Assembly (NCBI RefSeq): GCF_900115785.1
Contig: NZ_FOYS01000002.1
Location: 434,001-498,000, forward strand
DNA length: 64,000 nucleotides
Reading direction: 5' to 3'
DNA from: Halogeometricum limi
GTDB lineage: Archaea; Halobacteriota; Halobacteria; Halobacteriales; Haloferacaceae
Part shown: positions 22,985 to 46,348 of the stretch, one piece after another
How positions within the stretch are numbered: position 1 is the first letter of the stretch
Layout: every line of letters begins with the position of its first letter
Made by a program: the position numbers and the translations under genes
Notes under the pieces: generated by a model
What the model was told of the DNA's origin: nothing
Databases searched by the model: none
Seen by the model: the letters and a program-made list of their open reading frames with translations, nothing else

Positions 22985-23034
22985 GTCGGAATCGGACGCC
23001 CACGCGGCGTCGAGATGTCGCCGTCGCGCCCGTC

Positions 23035-23040
23035 TTTATG
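23035..23040 (+). promoter_or_regulatory. Candidate TATA box of rbcL
   Basis: TTTATG centred about 23-28 nt before the two possible start codons (23060, 23066); it fits a leaderless mRNA best if 23066 is used. Confidence 0.4.
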
Positions 23041-23059
23041 TTCCTTGCCCACGTACCGC

Positions 23060-24334
23060 ATGGGCATGGCTGGAATCACCTACGAGGACTTCCTCGACCT
23101 GTCGTACGAACCTGACGCGTCGGACCTCGTGTGTACGTTCCGCATCGCCCCCGCCGAGGGGATGAGCGCGGAGGCGGCCGCCTCCCGCGTCGCCTCGGAG
23201 TCCTCGAACGGGACGTGGGCGGCCCTCCCCACCGGCGCCGACTTCACGGACATGGGCGCGACGGCGTTCGCCATCGACGACGCCGACGCGGCGGGCGAGT
23301 CCGACGTCGGCGTCGCCTACCCCGCGGGCCTCTTCGAACCCGGGAACATGGCGCAGGTCCTCTCGTGCATCGCGGGCAACATCATGGGGATGAAAGCCGT
23401 CGACAGCATCCGTCTGGAAGACTGCGAGTGGCCCGAAGAACTCGTCACCTCCTTCGCGGGGCCGCAGTTCGGGTCGAGGGTTCGAGACGAGATATTCGGC
23501 CTCGAAGCGGACCGACCCATCCTCGCGACGGTTCCGAAACCGAAAGTCGGTCTCTCGACGAAGCGCCACGCCGAGGTCGGCTACGAGGCGTGGGTCGGCG
23601 GCGTCGACCTGTTGAAAGACGACGAGAACCTCACCGACCAGTCGTTCAACCCCTACCACGACCGACTCGTGGAGAGTCTCGCCCTCCGCGACGACGCCGA
23701 AGACGAGACGGGCGAGACGAAGTCCTACCTGATAAACGTCACCGCGGACACGAACACGATGCTCGAACGGGTCGACTTGGCGGCAGAAGAGGGCTGTGAG
23801 TACGTGATGGTCGACGTGATAACGACCGGGTGGGCCGCCGTGCAGACCGTCCGCGACCGGTGTGAGGACCACGGCATCGCCATCCACGCCCACCGCGCGA
23901 TGCACGCGGCGTTCGACCGCCTGCCGCACCACGGCGTCTCGATGCGCGTCCTCGCGCAGGTGTTGCGCCTCTGCGGCGTCGACCAACTCCACACCGGTAC
24001 AGCGGGCCTCGGGAAACTCGCCAACGAGGACACCGTCGGCATCAACGAGTGGATGCGCTCGGACCTGTACGGGTTGACGGACGTGCTCCCTGTCGCCTCC
24101 GGCGGCCTCCATCCCGGCCTCGTCCACGACCTGTTGGACGCGACGGGGACGAACGTCTGCGTGCAGGCGGGCGGCGGAATTCACGGCCACCCGGACGGAA
24201 CGCGGGCGGGCGCGGCGGCCCTCCGCGCGGCCGTCGACGGGTACGCCGCGGGAAAGAGTCTGGAGGAGTCCGCGGAAGCGAGTCCGGAACTCGCGGTGGC
24301 GGTTGAGAAGTGGGGCACGGAGACGCCGCGGTAG
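23060..24334 (+). CDS. rbcL: Type III RuBisCO large subunit
   Basis: Ribulose-1,5-bisphosphate carboxylase of the archaeal type III class: RuBP plus CO2 gives two 3-phosphoglycerate. About 424 residues. Catalytic residues are visible: VPKPKVGLS (Lys160 and 162), the carbamylated lysine K186 with Asp188 and Glu189 in DLLKDDEN, His in HAHRAMHAAF, HTGTAGLGKL, and the phosphate-binding ASGGLHPG and QAGGGIHGHPDG. There is no small subunit gene nearby, as expected for form III. The pathway partners lie just downstream on the opposite strand. Start is ATG 23060 or 23066. Confidence 0.95.
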   Translation: MGMAGITYEDFLDLSYEPDASDLVCTFRIAPAEGMSAEAAASRVASESSNGTWAALPTGADFTDMGATAFAIDDADAAGESDVGVAYPAGLFEPGNMAQVLSCIAGNIMGMKAVDSIRLEDCEWPEELVTSFAGPQFGSRVRDEIFGLEADRPILATVPKPKVGLSTKRHAEVGYEAWVGGVDLLKDDENLTDQSFNPYHDRLVESLALRDDAEDETGETKSYLINVTADTNTMLERVDLAAEEGCEYVMVDVITTGWAAVQTVRDRCEDHGIAIHAHRAMHAAFDRLPHHGVSMRVLAQVLRLCGVDQLHTGTAGLGKLANEDTVGINEWMRSDLYGLTDVLPVASGGLHPGLVHDLLDATGTNVCVQAGGGIHGHPDGTRAGAAALRAAVDGYAAGKSLEESAEASPELAVAVEKWGTETPR

Positions 24335-24993: not shown

Positions 24994-25956
24994 TTACTTC
25001 TCCACCCACGGTTCCGCCGTCGCCTCGCCGAACAGTTCGCGCATCAGGACGACGATGCTCTCGGGCGGGTACTGGCCGCGTTCGGTCACGATTGCGTCGA
25101 CGTACCGCGGGGGAGTCACGTCGAACGCCGGGTTCGCCACGCGCACGTCGCCCAGCGTCGCCGCCGTCTCCGGGTCTATCACCTCGCTCTCCTCGCGCAT
25201 CTCGATGTCGACGGTGTGGCCCGTGAGCGTGCCGGGGTGGAGTTTGATGGTCTGGGCGGCGCAGACGACGGGCGTCCCCCTGTCGCGGGCGTTGACGGCG
25301 AGTCCGCTGGTTCCGATTTTGTTTATCACCGACCCGTCGGCGGCGATGCTGTCCGCGCCGACGAGGACGTGGTCCACGTCGTTCAGGTAGCGACGCGCCG
25401 CCGAGTCCACGACGAGCGTCACGTCCACGCCCAACGCGGCGAGTTCGCGGGCGGTGATGTGCCCCTGCATCCGCGGCCGCGTCTCCTTGACGACGGCCGA
25501 GAGCGACTTTCCCTGCGCGACGGCCGCCTCCACGCAGGCGAGGACGTCCGTCGAGTGGCAGTGCGTCATCACGGTGTCGCCGTCGCGGAGGCGGTTCGCG
25601 CCGACGCGTCCGAGGTCGGTCTGGGCGTGTTCGAGGCGTTCGCAGAACTCGGTGGCGCGCCTGACCGCGGCGTCGCGGACGGCCTCTACCGTCTCGCCGT
25701 CGAGGTCGAAGAGGACGTAGCGGAGGGCGTTCGGGAGGCTCACGGCCGTCGGGCGGGTGTCGTCGAGCGTTCGGGCGGCCGCGCGGAGTTCCGCGCGAAG
25801 GTCCGCGGCGGTCGTCGCGTCGCTCTGCTCCGCTTGCGCGCGGAGGGCCGCCGCCGCCGCGTCCGCGATGGTCGCCGCGCCGCGAACCTCCATCGACCCG
25901 ATGGCGTCCGCGGTTCGGCGCACCTCGCTCACGACGCGCGAGTCGGGGTCGTCCAT
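24994..25956 (-). CDS. Ribose-1,5-bisphosphate isomerase
   Basis: Converts ribose 1,5-bisphosphate, made by AMP phosphorylase, to ribulose 1,5-bisphosphate for RuBisCO. About 320 residues, of the eIF2B-alpha-like family. Family landmarks are VRGAAT near the N-terminus, THCHST with the catalytic Cys123, ETRPRMQG, and GADSIAADGSVINKIGT with Asp192, the expected acid/base. The regulatory eIF2B subunits lack this Cys/Asp pair, so an enzyme is more likely. The start is ATG 25956. It follows deoA with 66 nt between them on the same strand, so they probably share a transcript. Confidence 0.92.
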   Translation of the reverse strand: MDDPDSRVVSEVRRTADAIGSMEVRGAATIADAAAAALRAQAEQSDATTAADLRAELRAAARTLDDTRPTAVSLPNALRYVLFDLDGETVEAVRDAAVRRATEFCERLEHAQTDLGRVGANRLRDGDTVMTHCHSTDVLACVEAAVAQGKSLSAVVKETRPRMQGHITARELAALGVDVTLVVDSAARRYLNDVDHVLVGADSIAADGSVINKIGTSGLAVNARDRGTPVVCAAQTIKLHPGTLTGHTVDIEMREESEVIDPETAATLGDVRVANPAFDVTPPRYVDAIVTERGQYPPESIVVLMRELFGEATAEPWVEK

Positions 25957-26022
25957 GTGTCTCGGTAGCACTCCGAACGACAAAAGGCTCTGCCGCGGCG
26001 TCGTCGCCCGCGAACGCTCGGC

Positions 26023-37503: not shown

Positions 37504-37967
37504 ACCGGCTCGACCCGCGCGTGCAACTCATCTGGGTCGGGAGCGCCGCCGTCTCGGCACTCGTCGTCGGGGGAATACTGTTTGCCGTCGTCAGGGTGTT
37601 CTCTCCGCCGTTCGTCCCCGCGTGGACGCCGTACGCCGTCGCCGGCGGACTGTTCGTCCTCGGCGCACTCCTCGCCGTCGCGCGCTACCGGGCGTGGGGG
37701 TACGAGGTCAGAGACGACTCGCTGTACCTCGAACGCGGCGTCTTCACGCAGGTCCGGACCGTCGTCCCGTTCGTCCGCATCCAGCACGTCGACTCCTCGC
37801 GCGGCCCCCTCGAACGCGTCGTCGGACTCGCGAGCACCGTCGTCTACACCGCCGGGTCGCGGGGTGCCGACGTGGCGGTTCCGGGACTGGCGGGCGACGG
37901 CGCGGACGAACTCCGCGAACGACTGAAGCGCCTCGCGATTCGCTCCGAGGGTGACGACGCCGTCTGA
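37500..37967 (+). CDS. Bacterial PH-domain (YdbS-like) membrane protein
   Basis: A 155-residue protein with two N-terminal helices and then one bPH2 domain (about 70-145): WGYEVRDDSLYLERGVFTQVRTVVPFVRIQHVDS. These proteins are of unknown role in haloarchaea; bacterial relatives help anti-microbial-peptide resistance or membrane processes. The stop and next ATG share one base (TGATG), coupling it to the three-domain partner. Confidence 0.88.
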   Translation: MNRLDPRVQLIWVGSAAVSALVVGGILFAVVRVFSPPFVPAWTPYAVAGGLFVLGALLAVARYRAWGYEVRDDSLYLERGVFTQVRTVVPFVRIQHVDSSRGPLERVVGLASTVVYTAGSRGADVAVPGLAGDGADELRERLKRLAIRSEGDDAV

Positions 37968-39688
37968 TGCCCGCACGACGCCTCTCTCCCCTGTCGGTCC
38001 CCTACCGGGTCGTCCAACGCGGCGGGAGCATCGTCGCCGCTCTCGCGTTCGCCCTCGCGACGGGCGGGTTCAGCCTCCCCGTCGTGGGTCTGGCGGGACC
38101 GCTCGCGCTCGTCGGCCTCGCGAGCCTCGTCGCCGTCGTCTTCGTCGCCTACGAACTCGCCTACTACCGCCGGTTCTCCTACGAACTCACCCCGGACACG
38201 CTCGACATCGAGTCGGGCGTCTTCGCCCGCCGGAACCGCGAGATTCCGCTCCGCCGCGTCCAGAACGTCGATATCTCGCGCAACGTCCTCCAGCGAGCGG
38301 TCGGTCTCTCCGCCGTCGCCTTCGAGACAGCGGGCGGAACGGAGACGGAGGCGAGTCTCCGATTCGTCTCCTTCGACGAGGCGAAACGCCTCCAGCGAGA
38401 GCTCGGACGCCTGAAACGCGGCGACGCGGTCGGTGAGGAGAGCGAGGAACCGACGTCGGAGACGCTCTTCGAACTCGACGGCCGCGAACTCGCCATCCTC
38501 GGTGCGCTCTCGTTCGACTTCCGCGTTCCCGGCGTCCTCTTCCTGTTCTTCTCGGGGTCGTTCACCCTCGTCACCTCCTACTTCCCGGACAGCATGGGTC
38601 CGCTCGTCGCCGTCCTCGGGGTGGCCGTCCTCGTCGTCGCCGCCGTCCTCGTCTCGTGGGTGGCCGGGGCGGTAGTCGCCGTCGTCAACTACTACGGTTT
38701 CAGGCTGGTCCGGTCGGCCGACGAACTCCAGTACGAACGCGGGTTGCTCCAGCGCTACGACGGGTCGATTCCGTTCGACAAAGTGCAGACGCTCACCATC
38801 GAGGACAACCCGCTGAAGCGCTGGACCGGGTACGCGACGCTCCTCGTGGAGACGGCGGGGTACGCGCCCGGACAGGGAGAGTCGTCGTCGCGCGGGTCCG
38901 AGGCGGCCGTCCCCATCGCCAGTCGCGAACGCGTCGAACGCCTCGTGAACGACGTCGAACCGGTGGGGACGCCCGACTTCCGCCGTCCGCCGAAGCGAAC
39001 GCGCCGCCGGTACGTCGCCCGGTACAGCATCGTCATCGGCGTCGTGACGGCCATCGCGTACAGCGCGGAGTTCTTCCTCGTCGACGGATTCCCGTGGTAC
39101 GCACCGCTGGCACTGCTCCCCGTCGCCGCCGTCGGCGCGCACTACAAGTGGAAGCACCGCGGCTACTGGCTCGGCGAGAACCACGTCGTCACCCGGAACG
39201 GCGTCTTCAAACGGCAGGTGAAGGTGGTGCCGTACTACCGTATCCAGACGGTCATCGACACCCGGACGGTGTTCCAGCGTCGCCTCCGCCTCGCCACCGT
39301 CACCGTCGACACCGCCGGGTCGCTCTCGCTGGGCGGGCAGGACGCCGCCGCAGTCGACATCGACGCCGCCGACGCCGACAGCCTCCGCGACGAGTTAGAG
39401 GAACGACTCCGCATCGCCGTCGCGGCGCACCGGCAGGGACGCGTCGGCATCGGCGTTGACGACGAACCGCAGGTGACGGAGTTGGTCGACGAGGGTGGAC
39501 GAAGCAGAGACGACGAGCGCGAAGCGCCGCCCGAGAACGGTGACGGCACGAGCGAAGAGACGCCGACGGACGGCGAAGACGGCGATACTGACGACGCGAA
39601 CGAGAACGCCGACGACGCGGACCCGTTCGTCTGGGGGGAGACCAGAGACGAGAGCGACGGAAGCGACAGGGGCGGAGACGAGACCTGA
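37967..39688 (+). CDS. Triple bacterial PH-domain (YdbT-like) membrane protein
   Basis: A 573-residue membrane protein with three bPH2 modules. Each has the pattern of a strand, a basic RRNR/RYDG loop and an I-P-x-x-x-V-Q-x-x segment: YELTPDTLDIESGVFARRN (about 64-82), LQYERGLLQRYDGSIPFDK (about 248-266), and VVTRNGVFKRQVKVVPYYR (about 407-425). Pairs of helices lie between them. The last 60 residues are an acidic tail of Glu/Asp repeats. It forms an operon with the single-PH protein, as ydbS-ydbT does in bacteria. Confidence 0.88.
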   Translation: MPARRLSPLSVPYRVVQRGGSIVAALAFALATGGFSLPVVGLAGPLALVGLASLVAVVFVAYELAYYRRFSYELTPDTLDIESGVFARRNREIPLRRVQNVDISRNVLQRAVGLSAVAFETAGGTETEASLRFVSFDEAKRLQRELGRLKRGDAVGEESEEPTSETLFELDGRELAILGALSFDFRVPGVLFLFFSGSFTLVTSYFPDSMGPLVAVLGVAVLVVAAVLVSWVAGAVVAVVNYYGFRLVRSADELQYERGLLQRYDGSIPFDKVQTLTIEDNPLKRWTGYATLLVETAGYAPGQGESSSRGSEAAVPIASRERVERLVNDVEPVGTPDFRRPPKRTRRRYVARYSIVIGVVTAIAYSAEFFLVDGFPWYAPLALLPVAAVGAHYKWKHRGYWLGENHVVTRNGVFKRQVKVVPYYRIQTVIDTRTVFQRRLRLATVTVDTAGSLSLGGQDAAAVDIDAADADSLRDELEERLRIAVAAHRQGRVGIGVDDEPQVTELVDEGGRSRDDEREAPPENGDGTSEETPTDGEDGDTDDANENADDADPFVWGETRDESDGSDRGGDET

Positions 39689-40128: not shown

Positions 40129-40773
40129 ATGGACGCACTCGAACGGCTCATCGACGGCAACGGCGAACACGTCGCCCGCCTTCGCCACGACCACTTCGAG
40201 GGGGTCCGCGACGGACAGGACCCGGACGTCGTCTCGGTGTCGTGTTCGGACTCCCGCGTCCCCGCGGAGAGCGTGTGGAACGCTCGCGCGAACGGTGACC
40301 TGTTTACCAGCGTCAATCTCGGCAACCAGGTCTGGACCGATATCGACGGCGAACGCGTCGTCAACGAAACCGTCGGGTACGCGGTGTCGGTACTGAACGT
40401 GGACCTCGTCGTCGTCCTCGGCCACACCGGCTGTGGTGCCGTGGCGGCCGCGTACGAGGCCGTGACGGGTGGCGACGGCGTGAAGTCGCTGCCGCCGGCC
40501 GTCGAGGCGGCCGTCGAACGACTCGTGCCCATCGTCGGGTCCGCGCGCGAGGAGGGCGTGTTCGACGCCGACACCCCGCACCGCCTCGCGGTGAACCGGC
40601 TGGTCGTGCGAGCCGTCAGCGAACAGGTGCAGTTCCTCGTCGACGACTGCGCCGTTCCGGCGGACGTGACCGTCGCCGGCTTCGTGTACGACTTCCAGCG
40701 AGCCTACGGCGACGAGGACGGGGCGGCGTACCTCGTCTCGCTGGACGGCGAAACGCCGCCTGACCCGCTGTGA
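40129..40773 (+). CDS. Beta-class carbonic anhydrase
   Basis: Interconverts CO2 and bicarbonate; 214 residues. Zinc ligands are Cys39, His99 and Cys102; Asp41 and Arg43 complete the SCSDSRVP and GHTGCG signatures. It lies beside dabA on the opposite strand, convergent with a 73-nt gap. Adjacent carbonic anhydrase and Dab genes suggest linked use of inorganic carbon. The start is ATG 40129, with an ATTCATAC element about 27 nt upstream; the frame is open further upstream to 40033 but that part is antisense to the VOC gene. Confidence 0.94.
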   Translation: MDALERLIDGNGEHVARLRHDHFEGVRDGQDPDVVSVSCSDSRVPAESVWNARANGDLFTSVNLGNQVWTDIDGERVVNETVGYAVSVLNVDLVVVLGHTGCGAVAAAYEAVTGGDGVKSLPPAVEAAVERLVPIVGSAREEGVFDADTPHRLAVNRLVVRAVSEQVQFLVDDCAVPADVTVAGFVYDFQRAYGDEDGAAYLVSLDGETPPDPL

Positions 40774-40846
40774 GCGGACTCGGTCCCGCTGGTTCCCGGT
40801 CGGTCGTGCCGGTGTACGAAGGTCCGGTCGGACGTCCCGCGGCGAC

Positions 40847-43273
40847 TCAGTCCTCGGCCACGGACAACGCCACCGGGTGGCTGTCCTCCGTGAGCGTGCG
40901 TTGCGTCGCGTCCGCCGGACGCCAGTCCAGGCCGGCGACGTACCGGAACGCCTCGTGGTCGCGCGTGGGGTCGACGACGGTCAGCGAGAGCCACCCGTTG
41001 TCGAGCAGGTCGGTGACGTGGTCGTTGTCGGACAGGACGTCAGTCACCCGGTCGACGGGCGCGTGAATCACGGTCGATAGCCGCAACGGCTGGTGGTACG
41101 GCACGTCGTCGTCGGCGAGCACGGACTGGAGCGGGAGCCCGGTCATCAGGTCGCCGCCGTTGCCCTGGTACACGCCGACGTTCCCCACGGGATTGTGGGT
41201 GACCTTCGACCCGCTGCCGTAGACATCGTTGTCCACCGTCGCGAAGTAGTACTGGCTGTTGATCCACTGTGTGACCACCATGGGGCCGCCCACGATGGCC
41301 GCCAGCGCTTCGCCGTCCGGGTCGGTCCTCCAATCGTACGAGTGCAGGAACGAGCGACCGCCCAAGTCAATCCCCTCGGTGAGGTCGCGGGGGCCGACGA
41401 CGAACGACGCGTTGCCCGCGAGACCCCACTCGGGGCGCGTCTCCGCCCAGTCGGCGGCCCGGCGTTCGGCCTCGCGGACGCCCGACGCGTCGGAGTCCGT
41501 GGTGTCGACGCGTTCCTCGGCCGCGGCGCGGCGCGCCGTTTCGAGGTCGGAACGGAGCTGCTCGACGTCTTCGTCGTGGCTCGCGGGCACGTCACCGGCG
41601 TAGAGGGTCACCTCGTCGGTCGTCGTGTTGTGTTCGCCGGCTACGAAGACGGTGTCCTCGGGGACGTCGATGCCCCGGTCGCGGAGTCCCTCCTTGACGG
41701 CCGGTTCGTTACAGATGGCCGCGAGGACGCGAGCGCTCGGCCCGCCGGGGTTCCCGGCGCAGGCACCGCAGTCGAGGCTGGACGAGAACGGGTTGTTCGC
41801 CGTCTGTCCGGCGTGGCCGACGAAGGCCACGAGTCGCCCGAACTGCGTCCACCCCATCGACTCGAACGCGTCCGCAGCGTACTCTATCTGCTCGCCCGTC
41901 GTCATCCCGCTCGGGAGTCCGTCGCCGTCGGCCGCGTCCCTATGAATGTCCGGCGCGCAGAACTCGTGCGCGCTCGGCGAGCGTTTCCGAGCCGCGTCGT
42001 GGGTGTCGTACACGAGGTTCGGCAGGAGGGTCCGAACCGTCAGCGCCGCCCCGTAGGCGACGCCCGTGCTCTCGACGAAACTAAACGCCGTCGAGACGTT
42101 CGACTTGAGCGAACCGACGACGTCCTCCCACGCGTCCCGGGCCCGGGACCAGCGGTCGTGACGCTCCCGAAACTCGCGGTCGTCGCCCGTCGGCCGGTCC
42201 GTGACGTGGTGCCGAGCGTCGACAATCGGCGGACAGGCGTCGACGGAGACGTCGGAGTCGTACCCCTCGAAGCGCATCGGGACGCCGAAGAACCCCGCGT
42301 AGCCGTGGGTCTCGTAGGCCCCCGTCGATTCGAGGTGCCGGCGGATGACCTCCGAACGGGTGTCGATACAGAAGACGAGCTGCGCGGCGGGACGCTCGTC
42401 GTCCTTGGCATCGTCCAGCGTCTGACTCGCGTCCGCGACGGCCGTGACCAGTTCGCGGCGGTACGTCGCCTCCCACGCGGTCAGCCAAACCTCCGGGAGA
42501 GAGTTCGCGTCGTCGTCTCGGCCGTCGGCGTCGGCCGCGAACTCCGGCGGCGGCGCGACCGGTGCGCCGAACCGGTCCGCCAACGCGAGACGGACCGCGA
42601 GGTACCCCTCGAGCGATATCGGGTGGGCGGACTGCCACTCGCCGCCGTCGTCGATGCGCTGCTTCAGGAATCCGGTCCAACCGGGGAGGGCAACGAGGTG
42701 GTACTCGAACAGCTCCGCGAGGCGGTCCGTCGGGTGGCCGTCGACGTAGCGTTCGATAGCCTCGACGGGGTCCTCCGGAAGGGTGGCGAGCGCCTCCCGG
42801 TCGGGGATGTCGCGGTCGTACTGGGCCATCGCGCGGAAACAGCCGTAGAAGCCGCGTTCGCGGTTCGGCATCGACCACTTCGCCCGGCCGTGGTCGAGGA
42901 AGCCCGCAAGCCACTTCGCCAGCACCTGGTCCACGTCGGGCGTCGCCGTCCCCTCGCCGTCCGCCGGCGTCGCCGCGGACTCCATCCGCGTCAAGAGCGC
43001 TTCGGGGTCGGCGTCGTAGCCGTGGTTGGCCAGTTCCGACGTCAGGAGCTCCCGGTCGATCTGTCCAGCCTCCAGCGCCCGGCGGAACACGGCGGCACTG
43101 GGATAGCCGTCACCGCCGAACAACCGCGACCCGTGCGCCACCGCCTCCTCGAACGGGCGGTCTTCGAACCCGGCGAGCGGGTTGGCCGTCACGAACGAGT
43201 GGAGCGGCCAGACAGAGCCGACCGAGTTCGACGCCTGCTGTATCGCCTCGCTCACTGCCCGCTCGTTACTCAT
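40847..43273 (-). CDS. dabA: DabA inorganic-carbon transporter subunit (DUF2309/UPF0753)
   Basis: Peripheral zinc protein of the DAB system, which with DabB accumulates dissolved inorganic carbon; 808 residues. The zinc and active-site residues of the family are visible at the right spacing: Cys302 and Asp304 in FCIDTRSE, His487 in FVGHAGQT and Cys502 in SLDCGACAGNPGG. It is related to beta-carbonic anhydrase, and is thought to hydrate CO2 in a way driven by the cation flow through DabB. The start at ATG 43273 overlaps the dabB stop by 8 nt. A second start-site choice is not supported. Confidence 0.93.
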   Translation of the reverse strand: MSNERAVSEAIQQASNSVGSVWPLHSFVTANPLAGFEDRPFEEAVAHGSRLFGGDGYPSAAVFRRALEAGQIDRELLTSELANHGYDADPEALLTRMESAATPADGEGTATPDVDQVLAKWLAGFLDHGRAKWSMPNRERGFYGCFRAMAQYDRDIPDREALATLPEDPVEAIERYVDGHPTDRLAELFEYHLVALPGWTGFLKQRIDDGGEWQSAHPISLEGYLAVRLALADRFGAPVAPPPEFAADADGRDDDANSLPEVWLTAWEATYRRELVTAVADASQTLDDAKDDERPAAQLVFCIDTRSEVIRRHLESTGAYETHGYAGFFGVPMRFEGYDSDVSVDACPPIVDARHHVTDRPTGDDREFRERHDRWSRARDAWEDVVGSLKSNVSTAFSFVESTGVAYGAALTVRTLLPNLVYDTHDAARKRSPSAHEFCAPDIHRDAADGDGLPSGMTTGEQIEYAADAFESMGWTQFGRLVAFVGHAGQTANNPFSSSLDCGACAGNPGGPSARVLAAICNEPAVKEGLRDRGIDVPEDTVFVAGEHNTTTDEVTLYAGDVPASHDEDVEQLRSDLETARRAAAEERVDTTDSDASGVREAERRAADWAETRPEWGLAGNASFVVGPRDLTEGIDLGGRSFLHSYDWRTDPDGEALAAIVGGPMVVTQWINSQYYFATVDNDVYGSGSKVTHNPVGNVGVYQGNGGDLMTGLPLQSVLADDDVPYHQPLRLSTVIHAPVDRVTDVLSDNDHVTDLLDNGWLSLTVVDPTRDHEAFRYVAGLDWRPADATQRTLTEDSHPVALSVAED

Positions 43274-44747
43274 CGGACACCTCCGCGGGAGAGACCACGG
43301 TCGCAGCCGGTAGCCGCATCGCGTTCGTCAGTTCGACGTACAACCGGTCACTCCGCTGGAGGACCCCGGTTTCGACGCCGACGTACGCGAGGAGGAACGC
43401 GACGGCGACGGCGACGTGGAGCGGCGTCATCGCGACCGTCGCCTCCATGGCGGGTGCCGTCCGGAGTAGCTCCTTGACGAGACCGTAGACCCCCGCGTAG
43501 ATGAGGATTGCCGGGAAGAACGTCAGCGGAACCGCGACGTACCGGAGCAACGCGGGGAGCGACGTCCGGCGGACCACGTTCTGCGTCGCGTGCAGCGTCG
43601 TCAGGACGACGAGAAGAACCAGTACCTGCCCGCCGCTGGTGGCCGCCTCGCCCGTGAGGAACGCGAACAGCGCGCCGCCCCCGAGCGCCGTCGCGACGGC
43701 CACCGCCGCGCCGAGTCCGGACCACCCGGCGGAGTCGGAAGCCGGCGTCGGACTCGTGTGCTCTACGCTATCGCCAGAGGAGAGGAACTGGTACCCTTTG
43801 TAGAAGCCGTGGAGGATGAGGTGAGCGATGGCGGCCCCGAAGAAGCCGAGGCCGACCTGCAGTATCATGAAACCCATCTGACCGACCGTCGAACAGCCGA
43901 GCTGGCGTTTGACGGCAGGCTCGACCGATTTCATCAACTTTCCCAGCAGCGCGCTCGTCGCCGCGACGACGACGACGAGCGAGAGGAACCACACCTCGGC
44001 GGTGACGACCGGCGCGAAGCGCACCAGAAGGATACCGCCGGCGTTGACGAACCCGGCGTGCATCAGCGCCGAGGCCGGTGTCGGAGCAGTCATCGACGAG
44101 AGGAGCCACCCGTGAAACGGCACGAGTGCGGACTGAATCATCGCCGCCAGGAGCAACGCCCCGGAGACGAGCAGTACCGTCGCGGCGTCGAGCGTCTCGA
44201 CGGCCGCAGAAAGCTCCGAGACGCGCGTCGCACCCGTCGCCGACCACAGCGTCAGGAGCGCGGCGGTCAACAGGGTGCTGCTCCCGAGGAAGTACCGCCG
44301 TGCGGACTTCCCGGCGGCCCGCGCCTGGGGCCACTCGCGAACGTACCCTATCAGGTCGGCCATCAGGAGCCCCATCGCGGTCCAGGCGGCTGCGAACAGT
44401 ATGACGTGGTCGGCCGCGACCAGGAGCGCGACGGAGAGCGTGAACGCGAACGTCCGAGTGAAGAACCGAGTGATGTCCCGACTCCCCGCCATGTACCGGC
44501 GGGAGTAGCTGTGGACGATACCGCTGATGAACGTGACCACCGTCCACAGCAGTAGCGTCAGGCCGTCGACGACGAGGAGGTCGGACGGGGTCCACGACGC
44601 GCCGGTCCACAGCCGTGCGGCCAACGCGGCGGCGCTCGCCAGCCACAGAAGCCACACCAGTCGCGTCAGCAGTACCGGGACTAGTGGCGTCGATGCGGTC
44701 GTCTTCGGGTACTGTCCTACGGTCTTCCGCGGGTCGTGTTGTCCCAT
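43266..44747 (-). CDS. dabB: DabB, NuoL-like membrane subunit of the inorganic-carbon transporter
   Basis: A 493-residue polytopic membrane protein homologous to complex I NuoL/M/N, believed to conduct cations for DabA. It contains VPFHGWLLSSMTAPTPASALMHAG, QLGCSTVGQMGFMILQVGLG and HLILHGFYKGYQFLSSG, matching NuoL/Mrp motifs but shorter. It is not in the nuo operon and is followed by dabA with an 8-nt overlap. The ATG overlaps a TAA stop of a short upstream frame (TAATG). Confidence 0.92.
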   Translation of the reverse strand: MGQHDPRKTVGQYPKTTASTPLVPVLLTRLVWLLWLASAAALAARLWTGASWTPSDLLVVDGLTLLLWTVVTFISGIVHSYSRRYMAGSRDITRFFTRTFAFTLSVALLVAADHVILFAAAWTAMGLLMADLIGYVREWPQARAAGKSARRYFLGSSTLLTAALLTLWSATGATRVSELSAAVETLDAATVLLVSGALLLAAMIQSALVPFHGWLLSSMTAPTPASALMHAGFVNAGGILLVRFAPVVTAEVWFLSLVVVVAATSALLGKLMKSVEPAVKRQLGCSTVGQMGFMILQVGLGFFGAAIAHLILHGFYKGYQFLSSGDSVEHTSPTPASDSAGWSGLGAAVAVATALGGGALFAFLTGEAATSGGQVLVLLVVLTTLHATQNVVRRTSLPALLRYVAVPLTFFPAILIYAGVYGLVKELLRTAPAMEATVAMTPLHVAVAVAFLLAYVGVETGVLQRSDRLYVELTNAMRLPAATVVSPAEVSDE

Positions 44748-44788
44748 TATGTGAACGGTCCTTGCCCGGCCACCGGCGGCCGCCCCAT
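44747..44788 (-). CDS. Possible 13-codon upstream ORF of dabB
   Basis: Minus-strand ATG at 44788 opens a 13-codon frame ending at TAA, whose last base is the first base of the dabB ATG. The peptide is MGRPPVAGQGPFT. An AGGTGA at 44805-44810 is 16 nt upstream, rather far for a normal ribosome site. The ATG sits in the loop of the hairpin at 44779-44798. It could let ribosomes reach dabB by re-initiation, or be meaningless. Confidence 0.25.
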   Translation of the reverse strand: MGRPPVAGQGPFT

Positions 44789-44798
44789 ATCGGCGGCC
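44779..44798 (-). promoter_or_regulatory. GC-rich hairpin in the dabB leader
   Basis: GGCCGCC at 44779-44785 and GGCGGCC at 44792-44798 are exact inverted repeats with a 6-nt loop. The stem is pure GC and lies 32 nt upstream of dabB. Both arms would be in the leader transcript if the promoter lies near 44839-44846, as the AT-rich elements CTTATC and GTATAGG suggest. Confidence 0.45.
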
Positions 44799-44818
44799 GG
44801 GCTATCACCTGCAATGAG

Positions 44819-44830
44819 AACGATATCGTT
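44819..44830. promoter_or_regulatory. Perfect 12-bp palindrome upstream of dabB
   Basis: AACGATATCGTT is its own reverse complement. Part of it, ATATCGTT, recurs at 44882-44889. Lies in the region between the Lrp/AsnC gene and dabB, where such dimeric regulators would bind. Operator status is inferred from position and symmetry. Confidence 0.4.
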
Positions 44831-44846
44831 GATAAGGGTTCCTATA

Positions 44847-44861
44847 CGAACAAATTGTTCG
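44847..44861. promoter_or_regulatory. 15-bp palindrome upstream of dabB
   Basis: CGAACAA-A-TTGTTCG, perfect arms of 7 bp around one central base, 16 nt from the first palindrome. The spacing between their centres is about 30 bp, close to three helical turns, so a dimer of dimers could hold both on one face of DNA. It abuts the candidate promoter element GTATAGG. Confidence 0.4.
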
Positions 44862-45031
44862 CAAAAATTCCAATCGGGACCATATCGTTCTCGTTCTACC
44901 GAAGCCGTCGAACACGGGAACGCCCCCGCTGGCGGTGCGCGAACGGCGGGTAGCGAACGAGCGGGAGAAGCGGGTGCTGTCGAAGTCGGTGGGATGGTCC
45001 GCACCGTCCGACTCGGGCGGGTGTGGTTGCG

Positions 45032-45508
45032 CTACTGCTCGTCGGCGCTGTCGGGGTCGAACCCGCTGAACGGCGCCGTCTCGTGACTCCGCACGAGCAC
45101 TTCGTCGGCGACGGTGACTCCCATATCGATGAGTCGCTGCGCGACGGGTGTGACGTCCTCGTCGGACTCGCCGACGGCGGTGACGAGCAGATTCTCCTCC
45201 CCCGTGACCAACTCCTGTACGGACACGACGCCCTCGACGTCCAGAATCTGCGGGGCGAGCGCGCCGCGTTCCCCGATGGGGGCGGTGCAGAAGAGCAGCA
45301 TGCGAAGGGGATACCCGGATTTCTGGTAGTCGACTTCGGCGCTGTATCCCTTGATGATTCCCATCGATTCGAGCCGTCCGATTCGCTTGCGGACGGTGCT
45401 GTCGGAGGCTCCCGCCCGCTCGGCGATGTCACCCGACGAGAGGCTCCGAGCATCTTCTTGGAGCGCGTGGAGGATGGCCCGGTCCACGTCGTCGATATCC
45501 TCGACCAT
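45032..45508 (-). CDS. Lrp/AsnC-family transcriptional regulator
   Basis: A 158-residue regulator with an N-terminal helix-turn-helix (DRAILHALQEDARSLSSGDIAERAGASDSTVRKRIGRL, split here around the turn) near residues 7-50 and a C-terminal RAM ligand-binding domain with repeats of beta-alpha-beta strands. It lies directly upstream of dabB-dabA on the same strand with a 284-nt gap holding palindromic sites, so it is the best candidate for controlling dab. The start is ATG 45508. Whether it senses carbon or amino acids is unknown. Confidence 0.9.
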   Translation of the reverse strand: MVEDIDDVDRAILHALQEDARSLSSGDIAERAGASDSTVRKRIGRLESMGIIKGYSAEVDYQKSGYPLRMLLFCTAPIGERGALAPQILDVEGVVSVQELVTGEENLLVTAVGESDEDVTPVAQRLIDMGVTVADEVLVRSHETAPFSGFDPDSADEQ

Positions 45509-45571: not shown

Positions 45572-46228
45572 TTACCGTCGCGCGTCGTCGATGACCTGCG
45601 TGAACTCGCGGGCCGTCTCGGTTATCGACTCGAAGTCGCCCGCTTCGATGGCGTCGCCGTCCATGATGGCGCTTCCCGCGCCGACGACGGCGGCACCCGC
45701 CTCGACGTAGTCGGCGACGTTGTCGATGTCGATACCGCCCGTCGGCATCAGCGGAATCTGCGGGAGCGGTCCTTTGATGCTGGAGAGATGCTTCGGCCCC
45801 ATCACCGACGCGGGGAACACCTTCACCATGTCCGCGCCCGCTTCGTAGGCGTTCACGGCCTCCGTGGGCGTGAGGATGCCCGGTGCGACGATAGTTCCGT
45901 AGCGGTTACACGTCTCGACGACGCCGGGGTCGAAGTTCGGGCCGACGACGAACTCCGCGCCGTTCATGATGCTCGCGCGGGCCGTCTCGCTGTCCAGCAC
46001 CGTCCCCGCGCCGACGATGGCCTCGTCCTCGGAGAACGACGCGGACACCTCGCTGATGAGGTCCATCGCGTCGGGGTTGTCCGCGGTTATCTCGTACGCC
46101 GTGACGCCGCCGTCGTTCAGCGCCTGCGCCACCTCGATGATGGTGTCGGCGTCCGCGCCGCGCATCACCGCGACGACGCCGCTGTCTACCAATCGCTGCA
46201 TATCCGCGTGAGCATCGAGCGTAACCAT
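45572..46228 (-). CDS. kdgA: 2-keto-3-deoxy-6-phosphogluconate aldolase
   Basis: KDPG aldolase, the cleavage step of the semi-phosphorylative Entner-Doudoroff pathway used by haloarchaea for glucose; 218 residues. The Schiff-base lysine is K136 in VKVFPAS; Glu46 in YEIT and Arg23 in VMRG are also conserved. It is of the bacterial class I type. The ATG at 46228 is supported by a TATA-like element at 46254-46262, predicting a leaderless mRNA. Convergent genes are absent; the Lrp gene is downstream on the same strand. Confidence 0.93.
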   Translation of the reverse strand: MVTLDAHADMQRLVDSGVVAVMRGADADTIIEVAQALNDGGVTAYEITADNPDAMDLISEVSASFSEDEAIVGAGTVLDSETARASIMNGAEFVVGPNFDPGVVETCNRYGTIVAPGILTPTEAVNAYEAGADMVKVFPASVMGPKHLSSIKGPLPQIPLMPTGGIDIDNVADYVEAGAAVVGAGSAIMDGDAIEAGDFESITETAREFTQVIDDARR

Positions 46229-46253
46229 CTCACTCACGAATCGCGCGGCACGA

Positions 46254-46262
46254 GTAATAAAC
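46254..46262 (-). promoter_or_regulatory. Candidate TATA box of kdgA
   Basis: Minus-strand GTTTATTAC, centred about 30 nt before the ATG. Confidence 0.5.
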
Positions 46263-46348
46263 ACCGGCGACACCGACACCGCTCGCCGTTCCCGACCGGC
46301 GGCCCCGAACCGTCCGCTCTACCCGTAGTGTGACAACTCGCGACACGG

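Follow-up and report, generated by a model that had tools for sequence, protein, structure and literature searches.

Gene content of the dab locus

The window analyzed here, a 64,000-nt stretch of the Halogeometricum limi genome, carries a dabA-dabB gene pair on its reverse strand, flanked by a carbonic anhydrase gene and a regulator gene. The dabA gene (40847–43273, reverse strand; 808 aa) encodes the subunit with the zinc site and membrane finger, and its product matches PF10070 across the entire model (positions 1–747 of 747, E = 4.8e-260). Sharing 8 nt with its reading frame is dabB (43266–44747, reverse strand; 493 aa), whose product is a NuoL-like membrane subunit (PF00361) that lacks the TM5/TM7 ion pairs and has DabB2 of structure 9rd0 as its top PDB match (E = 2e-39). 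A beta-carbonic anhydrase gene (40129–40773, forward strand; PF00484, E = 5e-24) converges on dabA, with the two stop codons 73 nt apart, and its zinc site is complete, comprising the CxDxR motif Cys39-x-Asp41-x-Arg43 (CSDSR) and the HxxC motif His99-x-x-Cys102 (HTGC at 99). DabA and beta-carbonic anhydrase each occur once in the genome. Upstream of dabB, at a distance of 284 nt, lies an Lrp/AsnC regulator gene whose product has a helix-turn-helix (HTH) and a RAM fold (45032–45508, reverse strand; PF13404 and structure model). The initial annotation, made from the sequence alone, had described these four genes, the overlap of dabA and dabB, the NuoL-like nature of DabB, the convergent anhydrase with its intact zinc site 73 nt away, and the regulator on the same strand as dabB, and all of this was found as claimed. 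A KDPG/KHG aldolase gene farther upstream of the regulator (45572–46279, reverse strand; PF01081, E = 6e-43) was rejected as a core member of the module, since just 4 of 60 loci have it close to dab.

Two further features lie between the regulator gene and dabB. The first is a conserved 43-nt putative promoter/operator (44818–44860, reverse strand; GAACAATTTGTTCGTATAGGAACCCTTATCAACGATATCGTTC) composed of a GAAC half-site, a TATA-like CTTATCA and a GTTC half-site, and the second is a predicted RNA helix (44764–44802, reverse strand) in the 5′ untranslated region of dabB, with arms at 44802–44791 (GCCCGGCCGCCG) and 44775–44764 (CGGTGGCCGGGC).

Catalytic and coupling residues of DabA and DabB

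The DAB2 system (DabA2B2) of Halothiobacillus neapolitanus (9rd0; PMC13144422) has the same two-gene PF10070 and PF00361 make-up. Alignment of H. limi DabA to DabA2 bore out the zinc signature proposed earlier, with Cys302, Asp304, His487 and Cys502 equivalent to Cys351, Asp353, His524 and Cys539, respectively. The dyad arginine, Arg306, aligns with Arg355 of DabA2, and the membrane-finger glutamate, Glu401, corresponds to Glu444 of DAB2 and is kept in 60 of 60 loci. Nine key DabA residues, the zinc ligands and Asp-Arg dyad included, are invariant across these 60 haloarchaeal loci, and the matching residues in DAB2 have been shown to be important (PMC13144422). Common to both systems are the zinc Cys2His site, the Asp-Arg dyad, the finger glutamate and a strictly conserved leucine (in RPEWGL).

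In DabB, residues Ser256, His260, Lys310, Ser316, His339, His343 and Lys347 (DabB2 numbering) are likewise shared with DAB2 and kept in all 60 loci; they make up its Ser/His/Lys proton path and, as for DabA, match residues of demonstrated importance in DAB2 (PMC13144422). By comparison, the DabB2 ion-pair residues Lys235/Asp185 and Arg182 are absent, replaced in H. limi by Gln205, Ser157 and Leu154, and haloarchaeal DabB in general is without them. The Lys235 position is Gln in 59 of 60 haloarchaeal sequences versus Lys in 74 of 76 bacterial ones. Loss of these residues in DAB2 cut growth yield by 30–60% and did not abolish function (PMC13144422). The ion pairs are a subtype feature of most bacterial DabB proteins, not a family-defining one.

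We consider it likely that the system hydrates CO2 at the expense of the proton-motive force and thereby supplies bicarbonate, with dabBA under the control of Lrp and the leader. DabA and DabB would assemble in the membrane as a DAB/DAC-family complex. Inward flow of ions through DabB, most likely protons, together with the DabA membrane finger would drive CO2 hydration in one direction at the zinc site of DabA, and the bicarbonate formed would fill a cytoplasmic pool for carboxylases. The missing Arg182, Asp185 and Lys235 of haloarchaeal DabB count against this explanation. Because the NuoL-type Lys/Asp/Arg ion pairs are gone, coupling may differ, and DabAB could instead be a sodium-coupled bicarbonate importer of the type of Staphylococcus aureus MpsAB, which has been argued to be a sodium/bicarbonate system (PMC13144422); haloarchaea, moreover, live in molar sodium. 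A plain symporter, however, needs no carbonic anhydrase-type zinc site with an Asp-Arg dyad, which was present in 60 of 60 DabA proteins, and the His/Lys proton path of DabB is fully kept. We regard such an importer as unlikely.

Distribution across haloarchaeal genomes

We surveyed 292 haloarchaeal genomes, 188 with DabA and 104 without, using co-occurrence statistics that ignore phylogeny. Counted in this way, DabA or beta-carbonic anhydrase is present in 290 genomes and both are missing in only 2, as would be expected if DabAB does the job of carbonic anhydrase, so that genomes need at least one of them. DabA is found in 27 of the 29 genomes that have no carbonic anhydrase, while 161 of the 188 DabA-containing genomes also have the beta-type enzyme. 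In 30 of 61 loci, versus 0.3 expected, dab has a carbonic anhydrase or similar gene no more than 8 kb away, in five arrangements. The two systems behave as alternatives, yet mostly coexist, often as neighbors, and where both exist, carbonic anhydrase would equilibrate the bicarbonate pool. With DabA and beta-carbonic anhydrase nearly complementary and all tested DabA catalytic and coupling residues kept, the DAB family assignment and the bicarbonate-supply role given in the initial annotation are well supported. MpsAB is a homologous inorganic-carbon supply system of heterotrophs that is interchangeable with carbonic anhydrase (PMC6689103, PMC8552792); the two rarely coexist in Firmicutes, in contrast to the 161 of 188 above, making haloarchaea a lineage where DAB and carbonic anhydrase coexist as neighbors.

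RuBisCO had also been named as a customer for the bicarbonate, and its gene is indeed in the window. A type III RuBisCO (23015–24334, forward strand; TIGR03326, E = 3e-190), a possible CO2 user, and the ribose 1,5-bisphosphate isomerase of the AMP pathway (24994–25983, reverse strand; TIGR00511, E = 6e-137) sit 15–17 kb from dab, and several relatives have RuBisCO within ~25 kb of dabA. While this proximity would suit a carbon-concentrating system feeding RuBisCO in the AMP pathway, RuBisCO occurs in 75 of 188 genomes with DabA versus 30 of 104 without (p = 0.07, phylogeny ignored), and 113 DabA-containing genomes have none. RuBisCO uses CO2 rather than bicarbonate as its substrate, and a supply of bicarbonate would require carbonic anhydrase beside it. 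The role of main customer is thus weakly supported; we rejected RuBisCO supply as the main function of DabAB because the co-occurrence is too weak, and consider a concentrating system of this kind very improbable.

Regulator, promoter element and leader of dabB

Of the 188 genomes with DabA, 183 have an orthologue of the dab-linked Lrp, compared with 1 of the 104 without (phylogeny ignored); the regulator adjoins dabB in 59 of 60 loci, and its sequence conservation exceeds that of DabA and DabB. The apparent exceptions were not accepted as counter-examples. Contig ends truncate G195 and G285, the latter retaining a 69% fragment of Lrp, while G205 and G272 contain no more than remnants of dabA, and G021, which does have the operator, is on a short contig. 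The N-terminal AsnC-type HTH scored 45.8 bits with PF13404 (cut-off 27). A sequence scan found no Pfam RAM domain match at the C-terminus, where the predicted model (mean pLDDT 75) has the E-H-E-E-H-E order of the beta-alpha-beta-beta-alpha-beta RAM fold. Matches of the model to full-length Lrp/FFRP structures had a probability of 1.00 with modest TM-scores (~0.4) and large rmsd, for which reason the relative domain placement is unreliable. An HTH and a RAM effector domain are common to Lrp/AsnC (FFRP) proteins such as Pyrococcus furiosus LrpA (1i1g) and Mycobacterium tuberculosis Rv3291c (2vbw); unlike these, the dab Lrp is a separate orthologous group locked to dabBA. A small effector in its RAM domain would plausibly report carbon state.

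The 43-nt element (GAAC, TATA box, TGTTC) precedes dabB in 59 of 59 scorable sampled loci as well as in the window, where it is the single exact match in the genome. It was detected in 114 of 127 held-out genomes with DabA versus 22 of 104 without. By association only, we tie it to Lrp as a candidate operator: the regulator would control dabBA transcription by binding GAAC and GTTC as paired half-sites on either side of the BRE/TATA box. Alternatively, another factor could read the site, or it could be merely a strong core promoter with conserved flanks, Lrp being a conserved neighbor. The TATA box does lie inside the motif, and the promoter of the Lrp gene itself lacks the 43-nt motif and bears a different conserved one. 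Against this, GAAC at −24 and GTTC at +15 relative to the TATA start are near invariant and fall outside BRE/TATA needs, Lrp tracks DabA almost perfectly across genomes, and in G129, which has Lrp and no DabA, a related site precedes MFS-Usp-Lrp genes. We judge this alternative rather unlikely. The element is kept even where Lrp is 56 kb away from dabB (G037, L110).

The predicted 5′ untranslated region of dabB extends over approximately 44807–44748, its start being placed by the TATA box alone. RNAalifold on MAFFT alignments gave no consensus structure because the inner part of the leader misaligns, and a plain pair count on the alignment was only moderately above shuffles; we therefore replaced alignment-based folding with a comparison of own versus swapped arms. 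Leader arms pair better with their own partners than with swapped ones (covariation z = 7.2). The CGACC core of the 5′ arm is identical in 42 of 60 loci, and in the remaining 18, where the arm sequences differ, a change in one arm is matched in the other (own 17.8 versus swapped 13.0, p = 2e-4). Rfam covariance models gave no credible match at E-values up to 10, and a known riboswitch or RNA family was accordingly set aside. The helix would add a post-transcriptional layer of control on dabBA. An element acting in the DNA, or a hairpin common to translation starts in general and with no regulatory role, to which we give a less than even chance, would fit the shared CGACC core, the variable inner part and the unremarkable folding energy (mean z = −0.9). 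Co-change of the arms across widely varying spacing, however, is easier to reconcile with pairing in RNA than with a DNA dyad bound by protein. Leaderless transcripts make up 72% in Haloferax volcanii (PMC4983044), and structured regulatory leaders are considered untypical of haloarchaea.

DabAB in heterotrophic Halobacteria has already been published (PMC8305020; PMC10880623). Hfx. volcanii has the same gene pair (HVO_2410/HVO_2411), annotated as a predicted CO2 transporter, and the portion of that account concerned with it does not mention a carbonic anhydrase linkage, an Lrp coupling, an operator or a leader RNA (PMC8305020). In the openly accessible literature, we found no report linking archaeal dab genes to an Lrp or a regulatory RNA, and no description of how haloarchaea sense or control inorganic-carbon supply. 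Relative to DAB2, the haloarchaeal system has a linked Lrp, often a beta-carbonic anhydrase, and a heterotrophic host. The DAB enzyme itself is known, whereas the strict Lrp coupling, operator, leader RNA and altered DabB are new. The near-constant Lrp, fixed DNA site and apparently folded leader suggest a dedicated, so far undescribed system for controlling CO2 supply. More tentatively, these parts may form a class-wide haloarchaeal module dedicated to inorganic carbon, in which a DAB variant without gating ion pairs is driven by a TATA-straddling operator, a regulatory RNA leader and a sensor of the Lrp type that responds to CO2, to bicarbonate or to a metabolite reflecting carbon state.

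As a natural DAB variant without NuoL-type ion pairs, haloarchaeal DabB would let the parts of the proton path that couple to CO2 hydration be dissected. The regulator, operator and leader of the dab locus are likewise open to testing, and they are conserved in a class to which the genetically tractable Hfx. volcanii belongs.

Gene content of the locus and the DabB variant

Profile scans agreed in coordinates and families with the four genes proposed in the initial annotation: a beta-carbonic anhydrase (CA; 40129-40773, + strand, PF00484), a full-length dabA (40847-43273, - strand, PF10070), dabB (43266-44747, - strand, PF00361) and an Lrp gene preceding dabB (45032-45508, - strand) with an AsnC-type HTH. 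The closest solved structures for DabA and DabB are the two subunits of Halothiobacillus neapolitanus DAB2 (9rd0; residue numbering compared against PMC13144422). In alignment to 9rd0, the zinc ligands of DabA correspond position for position, the Asp-Arg dyad matches at every residue, membrane-finger Glu444 of DAB2 falls on Glu401, and the leucine conserved within RPEWGL is likewise aligned. The core of the locus is ordinary, another DAB member, and its genome encodes one DabA and one beta-CA. DAC complexes are on record for class Halobacteria, described as heterotrophs (PMC10880623), and the dabAB annotation of HVO_2410/2411 in Hfx. volcanii dates from 2021 (PMC8305020), so a heterotrophic haloarchaeon carrying the dab pair has precedents. 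Within a phylum-wide sample of 247 genomes, DabA occurs in 27, all 27 in the window's own order. A three-repeat bPH_2 protein (37967-39688) adjoins the locus and is linked also in loci L038, L041, L049 and L090, a neighbourhood at family level.

The DabB subunit is distinctive. All seven DAB2 proton-path residues tested are invariant in 60 haloarchaeal loci, whereas the Arg182/Asp185/Lys235 ion pairs of DAB2 are absent, with Arg182 mostly replaced by Leu, Asp185 mostly by Ser, and Lys235 by Gln in 59/60 loci; Lys235 is retained in 74 of 76 bacterial DabB from an independent search. This combination of lost ion pairs and an invariant proton path makes the haloarchaeal complex a natural DAB variant. 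Alanine substitutions at the DAB2 ion pairs lowered growth yield by 30-60% and did not abolish function (PMC13144422). The loss of the ion pairs may reflect use of a different coupling ion, or a channel that stays open permanently.

Carbonic anhydrases and bicarbonate supply

Across 292 haloarchaeal genomes, DabA was found in 188 and beta-CA in 263, with 161 carrying both, 27 DabA alone (at least 10 genera in several families), 102 CA alone and 2 neither (Fisher p 3.6e-4, uncorrected for phylogeny). This distribution fits interchangeable bicarbonate supply, as demonstrated in bacteria for CA and MpsAB, the homologous system of Staphylococcus aureus (PMC6689103, PMC8552792). In Firmicutes, MpsAB and CA rarely occur together (PMC8552792), whereas most DabA-positive haloarchaeal genomes carry both.

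A CA or CA-like gene lies within 8 kb of dab in 30/61 loci (0.3 expected), a count inflated by common ancestry. Five placements were seen: convergent with dabA (as in the window), downstream and codirectional, ahead of Lrp in either orientation, and in the Lrp-dabB gap; this diversity argues for a recurrent association. The gap genes, found within the dab row of six loci (L035:11999-12535, L077:12001-12537, L082:12012-12548, L044:5675-6211, L043:5772-6242 and L071:5652-6272), are beta-CA-like and share 31-35% identity with the window CA. Their second motif retains its H and C, but CxDxR is lost or shifted (CSMSxC, CPLAD, CSEGW), which may make them catalytically inactive or altered CA-like partners.

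The window also encodes a type III RuBisCO (23015-24334) and an R15P isomerase (24994-25983). Of the bicarbonate supply suggested in the initial annotation, the general role fits the DabA/beta-CA distribution; RuBisCO was set aside as the main DabAB customer because its co-occurrence with DabA in the haloarchaeal sample is weak. Carboxylases that use bicarbonate are well established, and they offer a simpler explanation.

The linked Lrp regulator and the proposed dabB operator

The control module around dabBA is strongly conserved and apparently unreported. In 59/60 loci from about 50 genera, dabB is preceded on its own strand by an Lrp orthologue, with one or two intervening genes in some; the 60th locus ends at a contig edge. 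The identities of this Lrp across the loci (65-81%) exceed those of DabA (57-65%) and DabB (49-61%), and the protein is predicted to combine an HTH with a RAM effector domain. Best-match E-values separate orthologues cleanly, with none from about 1e-47 to 1e-59; genome-wide, the orthologue is present in 183/188 DabA-positive and 1/104 DabA-negative genomes. The five DabA-positive genomes without it represent contig ends or dabA remnants. Two such remnants, with large internal deletions, lie in genomes G272 (C1:2432203-2432595, L115) and G205 (C5:41067-41336, L116), where regulator and complex have been lost together. The sole DabA-negative genome with Lrp (G129) also lacks beta-CA; there (L105:5915-11461) Lrp is last in an MFS(NarK-like)-Usp-Lrp row adjoining genes for a nickel (anaerobic) CO dehydrogenase (E 2e-183 to TIGR01702) and for a CooC-like ATPase. 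A half-conserved operator-like site precedes this row, scoring 26.8 against window noise of at most about 15.

A conserved 43-nt block ahead of dabB contains GAAC, TTTG, TATA and TGTTC in this order. GAAC lies 24 nt ahead of the TATA start, TTTG adjoins the TATA element (TTTAATA or TATAATA), and TGTTC follows 14-18 nt past its start; spacing in L038 is off by one base. The two half-sites form an inverted pair whose centre falls at the BRE/TATA border. The window site (44818-44860, - strand), positioned by hand rather than by automatic anchor, has a poor TATA (CTTATCA) and a PWM score of 48, while the second-best site in the 64 kb, which overlaps it, scores 15; the exact consensus matches once in the 3.6 Mb genome, at this site. 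Among held-out genomes, matches occurred in 114/127 DabA-positive genomes outside the derivation set versus 22/104 DabA-negative ones, and the DabA-negative matches listed resemble GC-rich coding sequence. In genome G037, Lrp lies 56 kb from dabBA near a transposase gene, and the operator still precedes dabB. We infer that the dab-linked Lrp binds this operator.

In the upstream regions of 59 loci, the Lrp promoter carries its own conserved motif, ACGTACAAAGGTAAAGTG, in place of the GAAC/GTTC operator. A second block, CATAATGTTCTATAATG, lies just upstream of the operator in the dabB upstream regions (59 scorable loci), occurs as AGAACATTAT in 21/59 against 0 expected, and is perhaps another regulator's site or a second promoter. 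An amidohydrolase gene (chlorohydrolase-like, PRK07213; L109:8436-9452) adjoins Lrp in G037 and apparently in genome G226. It could account for the additional gene between Lrp and dabB in several other loci, where the two lie about 1 kb farther apart.

The dabB leader

Transcript starts predicted from the TATA box lie 60 nt ahead of the ATG in the window and mostly 52-90 nt elsewhere. A 5' arm at the predicted start, usually GACGACC, pairs with a second arm, GGTCG, 10-20 nt before the ATG. With only promoter and start codon as anchors, own arms paired better than swapped arms (17.2 versus 14.7, z 7.2; 0/5000 permutations as high), also in the 18 loci with a non-consensus arm (p 2e-4), which include the window, where the helix has 12 pairs (GCCCGGCCGCCG/CGGTGGCCGGGC). 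The column-wise pair count showed a moderate excess, folding energy by itself was unremarkable, and the leader matched no Rfam family. Leaderless transcripts make up 72% of the total in Hfx. volcanii, and leaders with structure have been termed untypical (PMC4983044). Against this background a class-wide folded dabB leader, itself dependent on a predicted transcript start, is noteworthy.
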